A DNA stretch of 64,000 nt from an uncultured Flavobacterium sp. (GTDB taxonomy: Bacteria; Bacteroidota; Bacteroidia; Flavobacteriales; Flavobacteriaceae). The first letter of the stretch is position 1, and every line of letters begins with the position of its first letter. The stretch covers positions 124,001-188,000 of the forward strand of contig CALJVL010000001.1 in the NCBI GenBank assembly GCA_937773775.1, in the 5' to 3' direction. The notes under the pieces were generated by a model. That model was not told where the DNA came from and searched no databases. It was given only the letters and a program-made list of their open reading frames with translations. Shown here piece by piece: positions 48,967 through 56,997 of the stretch. A program made the position numbers and the translations under genes.

Positions 48967-49092
48967 TATTAGTTTCTAAAAATTAGGCGACAAAGTTCGT
49001 GATTCTATATTTATTACATCCTTTTTTATTGAAGCGAATTTCTAAAAAGTATTATTTGATCATTTCAATTTTTTTTTATTACAAAAGGGTTT

Positions 49093-49224
49093 AATGTCCC
49101 GCAGCTTTGCTCGGATTTAGGGAGTAAATTAAGTTTTATCTTTCGGTTAATCACTTTCAATTCAAGTACAAAACCAACAACCAATTAAGGCGAATACACA
49201 AATTCAGCAAAACCGCTGTTGTCA
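49093..49224. repeat. Element E1: long imperfect palindrome (attC-like?)
   Basis: Left arm aatgtcccgCAGCtTTGCTcggATTT (49093-49118) pairs with right arm aattcAGCAAAACCGCTGttgt (49201-49224). Confidence 0.5.
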
Positions 49225-49248
49225 TTTCATTGTTTTTTAGAGGTCTAA

Positions 49249-49425
49249 TCATTCAGTTAAATTCCGTTTTCTGAAAGGAATCCATTTAAAAACAAGTCCG
49301 ATTCCACAAGCAGATAAAATCCCTAATATAGGTCCAATAAAGTTGTTTTCAGTTAAAAAGGAAGCTGAAACAGCTAAAACAAATAATCCAATTCCGATAA
49401 TCTGTGCTTTATTAAGTTTTTTCAT
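49249..49425 (-). CDS. Small membrane protein
   Basis: MKKLNKAQIIGIGLFVLAVSASFLTENNFIGPILGILSACGIGLVFKWIPFRKRNLTE, two hydrophobic segments. Confidence 0.55.
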   Translation of the reverse strand: MKKLNKAQIIGIGLFVLAVSASFLTENNFIGPILGILSACGIGLVFKWIPFRKRNLTE

Positions 49426-49541
49426 GTTTTTATATTGAGTTATTGTGGTTAAGATTTTTATTATCAATATTTTTTTTTAGAGACCTTTTTAGACTCATTC
49501 ATCGTACTTACTAAGGTAATATTAGTCTCACTGTTCCGAAT

Positions 49542-49712
49542 TTACTTTTCTGTTTTAATTATTTGAGAGGACAATCCAGCTATTATAATCACAGCAGTAC
49601 TCACAAAAATAGCTTTCCCATTTTTCTCAGGGAATAATAAAATACTCGCTATTATCCATAAACCGATAGAAATTAATCCCGTTATTTTTGTAGTATTAGA
49701 TATTTTTTTCAT
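49542..49712 (-). CDS. Small membrane protein (not in ORF track)
   Basis: Reading the minus strand: MKKISNTTKITGLISIGLWIIASILLFPEKNGKAIFVSTAVIIIAGLSSQIIKTEK*, two hydrophobic segments, same layout as 49249..49425. Confidence 0.5.
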   Translation of the reverse strand: MKKISNTTKITGLISIGLWIIASILLFPEKNGKAIFVSTAVIIIAGLSSQIIKTEK

Positions 49713-49843
49713 TATTGATATTTTTATGTTTTTTTTTCAGATTTGTAAAAGTTCTATTAATACAGCGGATTTTGTATCTGTCTTGTATACTTTTTCTATT
49801 TAAATATAATGATGTTTAACTATAAAAAACTGCATTACAAATA

Positions 49844-49890
49844 GTTGCTAATTGGAATGGGTACGAAGTCGAGAGACTTCGCATAGCAAC
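49844..49890. repeat. Nested inverted-repeat element with GAGA loop
   Basis: GTTGCTA-attggaatgggta-CGAAGTC-gaga-GACTTCG-ca-TAGCAAC; both 7-bp arms perfect. Confidence 0.65.
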
Positions 49891-49999
49891 GTTTCTAATA
49901 GCAATACCGATTTTTAATAAAATTTGGGCTTTTAAGGAAGACCTCGGGGAGCCGGCTATTGTTTCACTGTTACAAACATTGCCATTGTTAATCCTTTTT

Positions 50000-50776
50000 T
50001 TATGTTCCAAGACCTAAACTAGAAGATCGTGTTATAGATTCGCCAAAAAGTTGGCCACTATATCGAAAAGGTTCCTTTTCATCTAATTTTTCGGGTATAT
50101 ATTCAATAGTAATAAATAATGGATTAGCGAATGTTAAGTTATATTCAGTTAGGTCAAATTTATTCCAACCATTCTCAACTTTTTGTTTCAGAATTATATT
50201 TTCAGTGTTTATTTTTTCGAATGGTAATTTATCTTTAATATTATAAAAGTTTATTCTAAATCTTGTTGAATCAACATTTACATTAAATAAATTGATATTT
50301 ACATTTAGTATTTCTGACGGTTTTTTTAATTTAATTTTTTTCGCAAATTCTTGAATGTCTTTATTTTTGTCATTATTTGCTCGAACATAACCTGCAACCA
50401 TACTGCTGTAAGATTTCGTCCCAATTTCCAATTCTGTTGCTTTTGTCGCTACAATAATAACGTCTGATAAATCAATTGTTTTTTGCGTAAGAATAAATTC
50501 TTTATTGTTAGATTTTAAAACATTTTCGATCTTGATATTTAACTCTTCAAAACCGACATATGAAAAAGTTAATATTTCATTTGTCTTCGAATTGTCAATT
50601 TTCAATGAAAATTTTCCGTTTTCGTCAGAAACAGTTCCAATGTTTTTATTTTTAATTCCAATATTTACAAATTGCAATTCTTTACCATCATTACTTTTTA
50701 TTTTTCCATTAACTACTACTTGACAAAAAATTGTATTGTAAAAAAGGAGTAATGATATTAAGATATATTTTCTCAT
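50000..50776 (-). CDS. Carboxypeptidase-regulatory-like (CarboxypepD_reg) domain protein
   Basis: Signal peptide; VVVNGKIKSNDGKELQFVNIGIKNKNIGTVSDENGKFSLKIDNSKTNEILTFSYVGFEELNIKI. Confidence 0.85.
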   Translation of the reverse strand: MRKYILISLLLFYNTIFCQVVVNGKIKSNDGKELQFVNIGIKNKNIGTVSDENGKFSLKIDNSKTNEILTFSYVGFEELNIKIENVLKSNNKEFILTQKTIDLSDVIIVATKATELEIGTKSYSSMVAGYVRANNDKNKDIQEFAKKIKLKKPSEILNVNINLFNVNVDSTRFRINFYNIKDKLPFEKINTENIILKQKVENGWNKFDLTEYNLTFANPLFITIEYIPEKLDEKEPFRYSGQLFGESITRSSSLGLGT

Positions 50777-50803
50777 AATTTGGGGTTAGCTTGCCTACAA
50801 CGT

Positions 50804-52523
50804 CAGTCTGTGAAAAAACCGTCGTTATGTTCTTTCAAATATAATGTATATTTCGAATATTAAAGCAAGAAAAGTTGTATATTTAATGATGCAACACATC
50901 ACAGGAACTCCTCGCAATCAGCTATTTTTTTCTAGTTTAGAAGACACTATTTTACCGGAAAACCCCGTTCGTTTTATCGATGCTTTTGTCGAAGCATTGT
51001 CATTACAAACTTTAGGTTTTTCTGTTCAAACCATTAAAGGGGAAGGTCGCCCGAGCTTTGATACTAAAATCTTTCTTAAAATCTATTTGTATGGTTATCT
51101 AAATGGGCTGCGTAGCTCAAGAAAGCTAGAAAAGGAGTGCGCTCGCAATAACGAATTGCAATGGCTTTTATGTGCAATCATACCCAACTACCATAGTATA
51201 TCCGACTTTAGAAAACAAAATCCATTGGGATTAAAAAAACTCTTTAAACTCTTTGTTTCTTTCCTTAAAGATGCTGACCTAATTGGCTGTGAAATCATCG
51301 CTATTGACGGCACAAAAAGCAGAGCGCACAACAGTAAGAAAGCAAACTTCAACCAAAAGAAAATAGAGAGACACTTAGCGTATATTGAAGAGCGAACCCA
51401 AGAATATCTTGCCGAATTGGCTAAGAATGATCTACAGGATAATAGCATTGCAATCACAAAGATTGCAGAAAAAATAGAACGATTAAAAAAGAATAAAATA
51501 CGCTACGAACTTCTAGAAGACAAACTAAAAGAGAGTGGACAACCCCAAATAAGTACCACCGATCAAGATGCGAGAGCCCTTTTAGTTCAAGGAGTAGTAG
51601 TTGAGATAAGCTATAATATCCAAGCAGCAGTGGATAATAAGCATAATTTAGTTGTGGCTACTCACACCATAAATCGGAACGATCTTAACGCCTTAGGAGC
51701 TATCGCTTTGGAAGCAAAGGAAAATTTGGGACTAGATACTTTTACTGTTTTGGTGGATAAAGGCTACCATAATGGAAGGGAAATCGCCCAATGCATAAAC
51801 CATAACATCAGCACCATTGTAGCGCATCCTACGCCAGGAACAAGCAAAGAAAGCGTTACGCAACCCGATTACTTGGTAGCCAAATTTAAATACGATGCAG
51901 AAAACGACAGCTATACGTGTCCCCAAGGAGAAACTTTAAAAACTACAGGAAGGTGGCATAAAAAAAGTGGGCGAACAGAGCAAAGTAGTTATCAATTTAA
52001 AAAATACCGAACCCCAGCCTGCCGGGAATGTCTTGTAAAACATCTTTGTACTGCTAGACCAGCAGGGCGGGAAATCGATCGGAGCCAGTACGCGCAAGCT
52101 GTTGAAGAAAACAACAAACGCTATCAGGAAAACCCACAATTATACCGAACACGACAAGAGATAAACGAACATATATTCGGTACTATAAAAAGACAATGGG
52201 GTTATAATCACACTAATTTAACGGGACTAGAAAAAGTAAACGGAGAACACAGCTTAATTATGCTGGTTTATAACATCAAACGCAGTATCAATATACTGGG
52301 CGTTCCTGATCTGATTGCCAAACTCAAAAAATGGAACACACCTTACAGAGCACAAGTCTTGCTTTTGCTAAAAACGGAGTATTTAAAGCGAACTAACGCC
52401 CTTGATTATTATCTAATGAAATTAGTAGCCTAAAAAAAGAGCCTTCTTAAAAGGCTTTATTTGACTTGTAGAACAGGAAAATTCAAGCTTTTTAATGGAA
52501 AAAGGAGGTTTTTTCACAGCCTG
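50804..52523 (+). mobile_element. IS1182-like insertion sequence, ~1.72 kb
   Basis: IRL CAGTCTGTGAAAAAACC (50804-50820) and IRR GGTTTTTTCACAGCCTG (52507-52523), 16/17 match; flanked by ACGT at 50800-50803 and 52524-52527; single complete transposase. Confidence 0.88.
50886..52433 (+). CDS. IS1182-family-like transposase (DUF772 plus DDE domain)
   Basis: MMQHITGTPRNQLFFSSLEDTILPENPVRFIDAFVEALSLQTLGF...IAIDGTKSRAHNSKKANFNQ...TVLVDKGYHNGREIAQC...EINEHIFGTIKRQWGYNHTNLTGLEKVNGEHSLIMLVYNIKRSINILG. Confidence 0.92.
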   Translation: MMQHITGTPRNQLFFSSLEDTILPENPVRFIDAFVEALSLQTLGFSVQTIKGEGRPSFDTKIFLKIYLYGYLNGLRSSRKLEKECARNNELQWLLCAIIPNYHSISDFRKQNPLGLKKLFKLFVSFLKDADLIGCEIIAIDGTKSRAHNSKKANFNQKKIERHLAYIEERTQEYLAELAKNDLQDNSIAITKIAEKIERLKKNKIRYELLEDKLKESGQPQISTTDQDARALLVQGVVVEISYNIQAAVDNKHNLVVATHTINRNDLNALGAIALEAKENLGLDTFTVLVDKGYHNGREIAQCINHNISTIVAHPTPGTSKESVTQPDYLVAKFKYDAENDSYTCPQGETLKTTGRWHKKSGRTEQSSYQFKKYRTPACRECLVKHLCTARPAGREIDRSQYAQAVEENNKRYQENPQLYRTRQEINEHIFGTIKRQWGYNHTNLTGLEKVNGEHSLIMLVYNIKRSINILGVPDLIAKLKKWNTPYRAQVLLLLKTEYLKRTNALDYYLMKLVA

Positions 52524-52657
52524 ACGTCCCGCGGCTTGCGAGCAGTGGCGGGAACCATCACTACCAATAACAAATATATACGAAAATTGGAATTAACAGC
52601 GTTTTTTTCCGAAGGAAAAAACAACTAAAGCCATTGACGCAAACCGCTGTTGGCAAC
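52524..52657. repeat. Element E2: attC-like imperfect palindrome, one end displaced by the IS (other end 50791-50803)
   Basis: Reconstructed GCCTACAACGTCCCGCGGCTTGCG ... GCAAACCGCTGTTGGCAAC; 9-bp inner stem CGGTTTGCG/CGCAAGCCG and outer TTGCC.ACA/TGT.GGCAA with an asymmetric 5-nt bulge. Confidence 0.55.
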
Positions 52658-52765
52658 TGCCATTTTCACTCGTAAAGCGGCGTCGTGGCATTCGTATTTT
52701 CTATAAATATCAATGAATCAAATAGTTTAATTAATGGAAGTTGATAAATATCCTTATTTGTTTCT

Positions 52766-54451
52766 TTACCGTATCCAATCAATTTCGTTAGTCCTATAAT
52801 TCCGTCCGTTTTTTAATTCTTTTGTTAATGTTGGCATATCTAAATAAAATGATTTGCCATTTAAGGTAAGTGAATTTTCCCAAAGATTAGTTTCAGTTGA
52901 TTGCATGGTAGTCTTTTTTAATTCATCTATATAAAAATGGTCTCCATTAATAAACCTCTCATCAATAAACGAATAGTTCCCTTTTAGAGAAGTAAGTCCA
53001 ATTGAATGATAGTCATTTTTAAATTCCTGTTTTAAATTCCGTCCCATTATTCCGATCTCATTATCCGTAATAATTTCGTTGGAAATATGCGCATTATGAG
53101 CCCAAACAATTATTTTGCTATCACTATTATGTGCTAAATAAGAAATTCTATCCGCCATAATTTCATCCCGACTTTGATTTTGTTTACCGTTTTTACGATT
53201 TACGTAGTTGATGTGAGTGTTTTTGCCATTGAATAGAATTTCTTTGAGGGATGCGGTCAAATTACCTGTGGATTCTAATTGATTTTCGATTTCTAAAATA
53301 GTATTATAGTTAGCCAAAACTATTTTTTTAATTCTGCTTCAAAGCTGCCAGTAGTTTTTGCACTATTTGATTTAAGTTTTTGCACTAACGTCACTAATTT
53401 TTCGTCTTTAATGCCTTTCACATTTTCTGATAATAATTCATAGAAAGCCCAATAGGAGTCATCACAGCCTTTGAATTGTATGTTGTAATTTGAGCGGTTC
53501 TCCTTATACCATTGAAGAAAAGATTTCATTTCTTTGGTTTGATATATTGAAAATAAATGTTTTTGGATTAAGCTCTCTATTGAACTTGTCATCAAATCTT
53601 TATTCAATAGTTCAATATCGTCATAAGAACTTTCCAAAATAACCATCTTAAATCCTTTTTCTAGGATTAATCTCTTTGTGATCATTTCCCGCAGTCGGTA
53701 AAACTCGGCCGTTCCGTGTGTGCTTTCACCAATGGACACGATTTTTTTGTCACCTACTTTTGCTATCAATGCGTCTAAACTGAAAGATAGACTCTCGTTT
53801 GTTGATAAATCTAGTGCTGTGGATGCGATCTGGATTGCTGTATTTAAGTCAGCCGTATTGTAATTTTTTAAATATATTTTGGGCGTTTCGGTCATAGTCT
53901 GAATGTCTTTACCATCTATGGTTATTATAAAATCATCAAACCAAGCCGTTCCTTTACCATCTACAATTCCGCCAACATAGATGGCTTCAGCACCCGTTGG
54001 ATAGGGTAATGTTATCGAATATTCTTTCCAATTATTAGTGCCTTTAATCTTGTATCGCTGCATATTTTTAAAAGCCAGTGAACCGTTAAAGCCATCAATA
54101 CGCATCACAAGGCCAACCGATTTATCCACCTTTTCGTGTTTTATGCGTCCGGTAAGTGTAATGGAATCTCCCACATAATTGGCAGGGATTTTATACGTGA
54201 TACACCCAAACTTACTTTTGTCTGTTGACGTTACTTTTCCAACGCCATTTCCATTACTCATTTTTTTCGGCAGTAATTTCCCCGGAACTTTTTTCTAAAT
54301 TCCCCCATTTGAACCAACCTTCCGGCATACTTTGTTTATCGTGATCAAAATTCAAATTGTACTTTTTTGGATATTGATTTTGAGCTAACATAATTGGATG
54401 TGAAACCAAAATTCCAATTAAACAGAGCAAAAAGGTTTTAATGTTTTTCAT
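52766..54451 (-). pseudogene. Erythromycin esterase-family protein with N-terminal carbohydrate-binding-like region, two apparent frameshifts
   Basis: Three ORFs (54254-54451, 53320-54261, 52766-53317) chain into one protein if the 7-nt A/T runs near 54261 and 53325 are changed by -1 and +1; KIVSIGESTHGTAEFYRLREMITKRLILEKGFKMVILE...IIVWAHNAHISNE. Confidence 0.82.
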
Positions 54452-54478
54452 TATTGTGATGTTTATTTTTTAGTGGTT

Positions 54479-54617
54479 GTTGCCAACAACGTTCCCTTGC
54501 TACAAGCGGTTTGGGACTAAATTAATCCCATTATTCGGATTTGACAAATCATACCAAATACAAACCCATTTTCCAATCAAGCCAATTGCCCAAATCTCTT
54601 GTGAGCAAGTGTTAGCC
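54479..54617. repeat. Element E3: attC-like imperfect palindrome
   Basis: GTTGCCAACAACGTTCCCTTGCTACAAGCGGTTTGGG...CCCAAATCTCTTGTGAGCAAGTGTTAGCC; arms CTTGCT.ACAAG.G.TTTGGG complementary. Confidence 0.55.
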
Positions 54618-56246
54618 CTAGTTAATACTGCCGTGGCATTTTTTATACTTTGTTCCGCTACCACAAGGACAAGATTCATTTCTTCCTGTTTTTTTTCTAA
54701 GATTTTCTTGAATCTTTTTTATTCCTGAAATCTTCCCATAATAGTCTTCGTCAAAAAATTGTGCCCAAGATTCATCTAAAGCAATCAGATCTGAGTCAGG
54801 AAACTTTTGGAGTCCTTTTTTTAAATGAAAACCTAAAAAGCCAAGTTCATTGTCTGCTTTATAGTATTTGCTAAATTTTATTCTTCTTTCTATATAATCA
54901 ATAAATTTCCCAGAAGTATTTAGGTAATTAGCTACAGTCTCCAAATCAAAAATGTTTAACGCTACTGGAAATTCTTCATATTCTTTTTCTAATAGGATGT
55001 GTGTCTGATGTGTGATTGCTGGATAATCATCTAATACAATCGTAACAACAAAGGATTGTTTAATATCAAAATCAAATTGAAAATTTGGTTCTGCTTTCAA
55101 TACAAATAAATAATCATTTGAAGATTTGAGACATTCTGAAGCAGTTAATCCTTGTTCGTAAGCATCTTCCACTGCTTTTTTAAAATCACTTTGTATAGAT
55201 TCAATATTTCCTTTTTTTGAAAGTGCAGTTAGCTTTTTTGATTTGACTTGAAAAATAATTGCTTTATTATTATGTACAGCAAGAATATCTATATCGGTAA
55301 CCATTGTACTTTTAGATTTCTTTATTATCAAATTTTTTAAAGTGTTTTCAATACCGAAAATATTTTCAATAATCTTATATGTAATTTCTTCTGCAATCTC
55401 ACCACGATTGAATTGAGCTTTTGAACGATAATTGTCATCACTATACATCCAATAAAAAGGTGATTCATATATAGCCTCTGATAAATGATAAAGCATAGGA
55501 ATAAAGTATTTACCATTAGATAACTTAATTATGGGCTTCTCGGAAAGAATATTAAAATCTCCTATATCGCAAAATTGTTGGTTTTGAAGTTGTTCTAAGT
55601 CAAGTGTGAAATTTTCTAAAATATCTTGAAAATCTTTATTTTTTTGAGTAATATCTTCTTTTGAAAGGCAAAAAACATCAAGTAATTTTTCTTTAAAAGT
55701 ATTTTTTGATTCGAATTTTAATTTATTCAATTTACCTTGTAGAAGAATCTTTAAAGAATGATAAAACTCTGGCAGTATATCTAGCTTGATAGATTTTGAT
55801 TTAGAAAGCCAATCTATATCATATTTGTATTTTTCCGTGACCCATTTGGTGTATTGATAATCATAAGCCCCAGTTCCAGAATAGAACATAGCTTCTTGAA
55901 ACATTAATCCGTTATTAAAGAAGTCAAATGGACTTTCAGATGGACTTTCAAGCATTTTTGATATGTCAGGCATAAAAGTATAGTGTAGCTGTTCCATTAA
56001 ACTATACACTTCTTCTAATACTTTTAATTCACCATATTCTATTTCTTTTTTTGAATTCCAATTTTTCACCCAAAGTCCCATTAGAAACTTTATTTCATTG
56101 TTATTCAGACTCTCTCTCACATTTTTAGATGAGAGTTCGCTTAAAGTACCGCAGAAATCTTTAAGTACGATAGTTGATAAGATATAAATAAAGTTAATAT
56201 CAGAAGTGATTTCATTTAGTCTGTATAATATTTGTTCTTTATTCAT
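54618..56246 (-). CDS. SEC-C zinc-motif protein with possible PD-(D/E)XK-like nuclease core
   Basis: C-terminus GRNESCPCGSGTKYKKCHG (SEC-C); internal RGEIAEEITYKIIENIFG...VTDIDILAVHNNKAIIFQVKSKK resembles an E...D...QxK nuclease core. Confidence 0.75.
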   Translation of the reverse strand: MNKEQILYRLNEITSDINFIYILSTIVLKDFCGTLSELSSKNVRESLNNNEIKFLMGLWVKNWNSKKEIEYGELKVLEEVYSLMEQLHYTFMPDISKMLESPSESPFDFFNNGLMFQEAMFYSGTGAYDYQYTKWVTEKYKYDIDWLSKSKSIKLDILPEFYHSLKILLQGKLNKLKFESKNTFKEKLLDVFCLSKEDITQKNKDFQDILENFTLDLEQLQNQQFCDIGDFNILSEKPIIKLSNGKYFIPMLYHLSEAIYESPFYWMYSDDNYRSKAQFNRGEIAEEITYKIIENIFGIENTLKNLIIKKSKSTMVTDIDILAVHNNKAIIFQVKSKKLTALSKKGNIESIQSDFKKAVEDAYEQGLTASECLKSSNDYLFVLKAEPNFQFDFDIKQSFVVTIVLDDYPAITHQTHILLEKEYEEFPVALNIFDLETVANYLNTSGKFIDYIERRIKFSKYYKADNELGFLGFHLKKGLQKFPDSDLIALDESWAQFFDEDYYGKISGIKKIQENLRKKTGRNESCPCGSGTKYKKCHGSIN

Positions 56247-56272
56247 TAAATAATCGTGATGTTTTTTTCAAT

Positions 56273-56332
56273 TAGGGCTAACGGTAGGACGCTTGGAGAA
56301 GGACGACCCCCTTGGGAGTCTTTCTCCAAACG
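56273..56332. repeat. Element E4: inverted-repeat core TAGGGCTAAC plus 15-bp hairpin
   Basis: TAGGGCTAAC 56273-56282; hairpin CGCTTGGAGAAGGAC (56290-56304) / GTCTTTCTCCAAACG (56318-56332). Confidence 0.6.
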
Positions 56333-56921
56333 GCCAGTTGAGCGTAGTTACTCTATTTATTCCTACTATTCTTTTTTTGTAACGGAGTTGGTTTAGCTAC
56401 TCCTATTATTTTTTTATCACAATACCTTTCAATGAAACAATTATTTATTTCGATTTAGCAAGCCTGCTAAACGTAGTTAATAATTGGGTTTTCGAGCTCT
56501 TTTTTTCAGATTTAAAAGTTAATGAGTCTTGACTTTATCCTTTTTTATCACTAACTTAGTCAAGTCATTACGTTGTCAAACGTTTGAAAGTAAACTTTCT
56601 ACGATTTAATCGCATGACTTGAAGTGGAAATCCTTTTCCTTTTTAATCTTATAAAAATATCTCTAAAATTCATTGTGCAAATAACACGTAGATTGAGCCA
56701 ATTACGCTCTAACTAGTGTATAGGCGAAATTAAACTTCGCCAATTCGCCCATTTTTGGTTGTATATACGAAGTTTTGTTTCGCTTTATACTATTCCAAAT
56801 ATATTACTTTATTTCTTACAAATCATCAAGAGGAATTATATTCACTTTCCGTTTTTGTGTACATATAAATCTTTTTACATTTTCTTTACTAGATTTTATT
56901 TTGAAAAACTAAACGCTCTAA

Positions 56922-56997
56922 TTAGCCCTGATGGCAATGAAAATCCCGTGCCTTTTTTTGGTGCGGATTGTAATGAACAGCAGGACGAGGCGTTGTG
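56922..56997 (+). ncRNA. Candidate structured/repeated intergenic element
   Basis: TTAGCCCTGATGGCAATGAAAATCCCGTGCCTTTTTTTGGTGCGGATTGTAATGAACAGCAGGACGAGGCG; resembles an element recalled from other flavobacterial intergenic regions (possibly Rfam Flavo-1); not verified. Confidence 0.35.

Follow-up and report, generated by a model that had tools for sequence, protein, structure and literature searches.

Organization of the SEC-C locus

The window, that is, the whole 64,000-nt stretch of Flavobacterium DNA analyzed here, carries between 49.1 and 56.84 kb the genes and repeated structures compiled in Table 1. The gene encoding the SEC-C protein is enclosed by a perfect 10-bp inverted repeat, the copies of which lie at 54611-54620 (GTTAGCCCTA) and, reverse-complemented, at 56273-56282, with the TAG stop codon lying within the former copy and the ATG located 26 nt inside the latter. 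In the preliminary description, this arrangement, in which the stop codon overlaps the inner core and the leader is short, had been taken as that of an integron-type gene cassette, and the present analysis bore out both the repeat and this reading. The proposal that the 10-mer itself is a common core proved wrong, as it is the R'/R'' pair of this particular cassette, and only GTT/AAC is common to all sites.

Table 1. Features recognized between 49.1 and 56.84 kb of the window
Feature	Position	Strand	Basis and remarks
Fossil 3' end of integrase gene	56816..56839	-	Reads IIPLDDL-stop (intact relatives end IKSPFDDL); alignment with intact locus L070, three-frame translation
attI	56713..56815	-	Long inverted repeat GCGAAACAAAACTTCG..GCGAAGTTTAATTTCGC, then CTATACACTAG^TT; putative crossover between 56713 and 56712
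Cassette 1	56282..56712	-	Starts GTTAGAGCGT; ends in short hairpin site 56282-56345, R'' ACGCTC-AAC
Cassette 2 (R' GTTAGCCCTA, leader, SEC-C gene, attC)	54488..56281	-	Repeat search, attC profile match, pairing
SEC-C gene, 542-aa protein	54618..56246	-	SEC-C motif at the C-terminus; NERD-like nuclease region weakly matched, under the Pfam cut-off
attC of cassette 2	54481..54624	-	R'' TAGGGCTAAC at 54611-54620, stem arms, AACG^TT; 126 bits, E 1e-22
Cassette 3	52524..54487	-	Erythromycin-esterase-family gene; R' GTTGGCAAC, R'' GTTGCCAAC at 52649-52657; attC cut by IS
IS1182-type insertion sequence	50804..52523	+	In R' box of cassette 3 attC; ACGT on both sides
Cassette 4 (or what is left of several cassettes)	49086..50801	-	CarboxypepD_reg-like ORF 50000-50776, small ORF 49249-49467
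Degenerate attC of cassette 4	49086-49231	-	79.7 bits

In integrons, the attC of a circular cassette has complementary R'' and R' boxes, and insertion leaves R' at the start and R'' at the end of the cassette; since insertion splits the two boxes, pairing is expected for each cassette, not for each site. Such pairing of a cassette start with its own attC is the classic sign of a once-circular cassette, and the 10-mer is exactly a cassette-specific pairing of this kind, in which the start R' (GTTAGCCCTA) matches the outer arm R'' (TAGGGCTAAC) of the cassette's own attC. By itself, the 10-bp repeat is weak evidence, as 33 of 2000 random 10-mers of the window (1.65%) found their reverse complement within 3.5 kb, a frequency that lends some weight to a chance repeat around an ordinary chromosomal gene. 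The repeat nevertheless goes beyond chance because the 54.6-kb copy is the first arm of a structured site that recurs and that the attC model matched with the E value given in Table 1, because the adjoining cassettes carry their own, different start/end pairs, and because pairing of this kind was seen over 47 cassettes of related arrays. Furthermore, a fossil attI lies upstream, the 10-mer occurs in only three copies in the 3.44-Mb genome, two of which flank the SEC-C gene, and the gene is not syntenic in the genus, being found among 150 genomes in its own genome and as one 30%-identical homologue. The last two results run counter to both conditions under which the preliminary description would have given up the cassette reading, namely conserved synteny and a commonplace 10-mer. 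A chance origin of the repeat thus appeared extremely improbable. No allele lacking exactly the 54.6-56.28 kb segment was found, and no excised circle was seen. A role of the SEC-C protein in defence was considered and discarded, given that the PADLOC match covered the SEC-C tail alone.

Structure and pairing of the attC sites

Several other positions of the genome carry relatives of the site at 54481-54624. In gene direction, the members of this family start with CTAAC and end with GAACGTT, share the middle GGCTTAAT..TTTTGTATTTGG..AAATCCGAA, and form a hairpin of ~130 nt whose stem arms vary between copies yet change in concert. Across 51 sites from several genomes, double changes were found in 15 of the 16 stem pairs and 89% of cells paired, resulting in a covariation score of 0.590, compared with 0.204 after shuffling and at most 0.09 when the partner was slid by 1-3 columns. 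These covarying stem arms and conserved ends thus correspond to the design of an integron attC. As in canonical integrons, the sites are imperfect palindromes with AAC/GTT cores, and they mostly delimit single-ORF cassettes of the same direction; the R boxes rarely followed the canonical consensus (GTTRRRY in 3/46 and RYYYAAC in 2/49), with GTTR being present in 42/46.

Of 61 genomes examined in the genus, 32 contained the site, one of them with ~145 candidates. The arrays run one way with one site per 0.5 to 2 kb, and a profile search returned 134 sites over 24 loci and no match once the sequences were reversed. Typically one ORF lies between consecutive sites, the longest ORF of a cassette being in sense orientation in 67 cases and antisense in 7, and its stop codon precedes the end of the following R'' by a median of 17 nt. 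No cassette common to different species was found in a 100-cassette sample, the sole matches being same-strain records, one weak 81% match and an IS91-like element.

Pairing was scored by comparing the seven bases after GTT with the complement of the seven bases before AAC. Over the 47 cassettes, R'/R'' pairing reached 5.68 of 7, whereas shuffled pairs gave 2.58 (sd 0.19; the highest of 10,000 shuffles was 3.43) and the R' of the neighbor gave 2.45; the SEC-C cassette showed 7 of 7. Pairing between attI and the R'' of the first attC was likewise high (6.03 of 7 versus 2.96 after shuffling, sd 0.22, n = 33).

Remains of an integrase gene and attI in the window

Upstream of the first cassette, the end of an integrase gene reading ATTCCTCTTGATGATTTGTAA was recognized, the remainder of the gene not being detectable in the window by tblastn. 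The G of the adjacent attI lies 103 nt past the fossil stop codon, like that of the intact family, and the attI block shares 87.7% identity across 114 nt with its counterpart in an intact integron (G020). The fossil integrase end and attI thus identify the segment of 49.1-56.84 kb as an integron with a dead integrase. No integrase ORF was found in the window array, and the sites at 54481-54624, near 52.6 kb (interrupted) and at 49086-49231 conform to the definition of a CALIN, namely at least two attC within 4 kb with no integrase nearby. An intact integrase of the family is present elsewhere in the same genome (contig C25), and none of the fetched loci of relatives carried an integrase at the orthologous position beside htpG. 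A Flavo-1 RNA (Rfam RF01705, 54.9 bits) occupies 56920-56991, between the fossil integrase end and htpG. Such decay is not unique to the window, since an integrase with internal stops also precedes a second array, which has at least 14 sites (L182-L183, G538:C2:149000-187000).

With respect to the individual cassettes, cassette 1 lacks any ORF of at least 60 aa on its own strand, and its R'' is one base short relative to R'; the pairing was read by eye and is missed by an ungapped search. The erythromycin-esterase-family gene of cassette 3 (52766-54451) is broken into three ORFs. For the R' of cassette 4, a matching R'' was sought and none was found.

The integrase family and its association with the arrays

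A genome-wide scan returned at least 575 relatives of the integrase, mostly from Bacteroidota, of which 80 loci were fetched. The tyrosine recombinase near the arrays always precedes the array and is read the same way, the direction of the array agreeing with that of the integrase for 49 of 49 sites in four arrays. At least one site match was found in 40 of the 80 loci, many contigs ending shortly after the integrase; with three exceptions, the matches are located downstream of the integrase and on its strand. About 105 nt past the integrase stop codon, a long inverted repeat ends in TATATACAAG^TTRnn and is followed by the first cassette; this element was assigned as attI because the bases after its G^TT pair with the R'' of the first attC. 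An attI as the place of cassette insertion is also a feature of canonical integrons, and the window retains a fossil of it. Intact integrons composed of an integrase, attI ~105 nt downstream and an array of the same direction occur across Bacteroidota, at another locus of the genome studied here and on one plasmid of Chryseobacterium sp. SNU WT5 (L172, NZ_CP041688.1), where the sites directly follow several ORFs. The cassettes of this plasmid encode Crp/Fnr, RidA and metallophosphoesterase proteins, and an IS110 transposase and group II introns are located near its attC sites. Overall, 109 of 398 Bacteroidota genomes contain matching attC-like sites, and 123 encode a close relative of the integrase.

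Hairpins that stand close behind stop codons, and that are also present outside integrase contigs, might be regarded as a dispersed REP- or terminator-type repeat following genes and not as recombination sites. This reading leaves unexplained the pairing of the first bases of a cassette with its last hairpin, the pairing between attI and attC, and the one-way arrays adjoining one recombinase family, and we consider it very unlikely compared with a function of the hairpins as attC.

All six catalytic residues are present in the integrase (R204, K229, H294, R297, H320 and Y329 in L087), and the C-terminal tail SPFD is kept in the family. The IntI-specific additional domain (~40 residues near patch III) is absent; the spacing from KGxKDR to HxLRHS was 58-59 residues in 36 integrases, compared with 100 in IntI1 and 66 in XerD, and alignment to IntI4 (2A3V) skipped the region of the insertion, with the alignment to IntI1 also lacking it. 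The score against TIGR02249 (IntI) was 202.7 bits, below the cut-off of 265, while that against NCBIfam NF040815 lay just above the cut-off (221.5 versus 220 bits). In a phylogenetic tree, the family branched apart from XerC and XerD of the genome; its placement relative to canonical IntI depends on IntI1 as the sole representative, on a long branch.

The integrase carries an extra N-terminal domain of ~70 residues, modeled as a beta-beta-alpha-beta-beta-alpha fold, which gave no significant Pfam match. The closest PDB match of this model was the HARP substrate-recognition domain of SMARCAL1, with a non-significant E value of 0.49. Homology to HARP was not adopted, since the hint comes from the fold only and the HARP profile gave no match near the integrase of the own genome. 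The full-length model (pLDDT 84.5, pTM 0.52) was good locally, its domain arrangement not being reliable. Integrases of ~600 aa, seemingly with several N-terminal modules, adjoin arrays of similar sites in two other loci (L073 and L074 from G016 and G024).

Mobile elements at the attC sites

The IS1182-type element that interrupts the attC of cassette 3 has 15 right ends in its own genome and is inserted in one orientation. At the right end, all 12 flanks that could be read terminate in RACGT, as does the R' side of attC; 11 of them match the attC profile, and the twelfth is the attC of the window itself. At the left end, 13 of the 14 flanks that could be read start with ACGTTR, as cassettes do. 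Judging from these flanks, the element appears to be attC-specific. The IS1111-attC group of the IS110 family, known for targeting attC, likewise occupies one position and one orientation in attC, whereas the transposase of the window element is an IS1182/IS5-like DDE enzyme and not of the IS110 type. No paper tying IS1182 to attC in such a manner was found among the open-access papers searched. On contigs C10 and C28 of G000, equal spacings of IS ends (2533 and 5182 bp) represent either a duplicated stretch of array or an assembly repeat.

An IS91-like element is a second kind of mobile element at attC sites. Its transposase and a tyrosine recombinase lie at the R'' side of an attC on contig C36 of the own genome (L032, 3.9-5.1 kb), and the element also occurs at two places of L084 (G062), the junction being GGTTTAGTTC abutting AAC in two genomes. 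The recombinase of contig C36, examined as a candidate array integrase, was rejected, since it belongs to the inserted IS91-like element.

Proposed mechanism and comparison with known integrons

Taken together, it is highly probable that the SEC-C gene is one of the cassettes of a chromosomal integron, now decayed, in which cassettes were moved by the adjoining tyrosine recombinase. In the intact relatives, the recombinase encoded just upstream would insert circular cassettes at attI, ~105 bp past the stop codon of the recombinase gene. There, attI would recombine with the attC of the circle being captured, folded presumably as a single strand, and the crossover would probably fall between G and TT of AACG^TT. 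With each insertion, R' at the cassette start would be parted from R'' in the attC of that cassette, and the perfect 10-bp inverted repeat would have arisen because of this parting; repeated insertion would build an array read in the direction of the integrase. Of this scheme, the anatomy of the loci, the pairing, the hairpin covariation and the proximity of integrase and array are observed features, whereas recombination, its precise point of cleavage and a single folded strand as substrate are inferred. In the window, only the last codons of the integrase gene survive, together with attI and at least three cassettes, and cassette 3 has been struck by an IS that appears to target attC. Excision of cassettes would then be possible only if an intact integrase encoded elsewhere in the genome acted in trans, and an excised circle of the SEC-C cassette would carry the junction AACG^TTAGCCCTA. 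Counting against this explanation are the missing IntI-specific insertion, which is reported to be required for integron recombination, the lack of a cassette shared between species in the 100-cassette sample, cassette 4 with no matching R'', and the fact that neither an empty allele nor a circle was observed.

Alternatively, the same cassettes could have been moved by host XerC/XerD, or by a canonical IntI in trans, with the adjoining recombinase being a bystander, as might be expected from an enzyme that lacks the IntI-specific insertion and scores close to Xer models. Against this stand the finding that none of the proteins in 41 genomes of the order scored above the IntI cut-off, the position of attI ~105 nt after the integrase stop across the phylum together with its pairing with the first cassette, and the arrays that begin at the integrase and run in its direction. 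We regard a bystander role as improbable and favor the adjoining recombinase as the integrase.

By its anatomy, the system is an integron, and by the usual definition of the integrase, it is not; since the integrase did not reach the IntI cut-off, we named it a variant of the integron and not a canonical integron. Integrons with a canonical IntI, such as class 1 (intI1) and the chromosomal integron of Vibrio cholerae (IntI4, 2A3V), are alike in their cassette arrays, attI beside the integrase, imperfect-palindrome attC with AAC/GTT, R'/R'' pairing, probable crossover at G^TT, catalytic R-K-H-R-H-Y and C-terminal SPLD/SPFD tail. The Bacteroidota integrase differs in lacking the IntI-specific insertion, in its extra N-terminal domain, and in its position upstream of the array, to which it runs parallel; the R boxes rarely fit GTTRRRY/RYYYAAC. 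The window locus resembles a CALIN in having an array with no working integrase beside it, but it retains the dead integrase end and attI, and its attC type is unlike those described. XerA/XerC/XerD are similar to the integrase in length and core, whereas Xer proteins are not located at cassette arrays.

The NCBIfam name of NF040815 (XerA_Arch), "site-specific tyrosine recombinase/integron integrase", already hints at an integron integrase. IntegronFinder 2.0 reported In0 elements and, from Salinibacter, a single complete integron of Bacteroidetes (PMC9024848), Bacteroidetes are absent from the attC models of 2021 (PMC8352920), and both the archaeal-integron paper and the 2008 survey used the additional domain as a defining feature. 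In the open-access papers searched, integrons in Bacteroidetes are almost unreported, and subscription journals may hold a description. Standard tools probably miss these arrays. Considering the 109 of 398 genomes with sites and the 123 with an integrase relative, a large gene-capture system of Bacteroidota thus seems to have been overlooked.

Escudero et al. proposed that a Xer-like ancestor became able to use single-stranded sites by acquiring an I2-like domain (PMC4792948), and a cassette system lacking an I2-like insertion, one example of which is plasmid-borne, makes this proposal directly testable. We tentatively suggest, with somewhat less than even confidence, that the Bacteroidota system may be a separate integron lineage, whose integrase would recombine folded single-stranded attC with no I2 region, the extra N-terminal domain recognizing the structure. 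If so, it would represent either an ancestral stage of the integron or a lineage that arrived at such a system independently.
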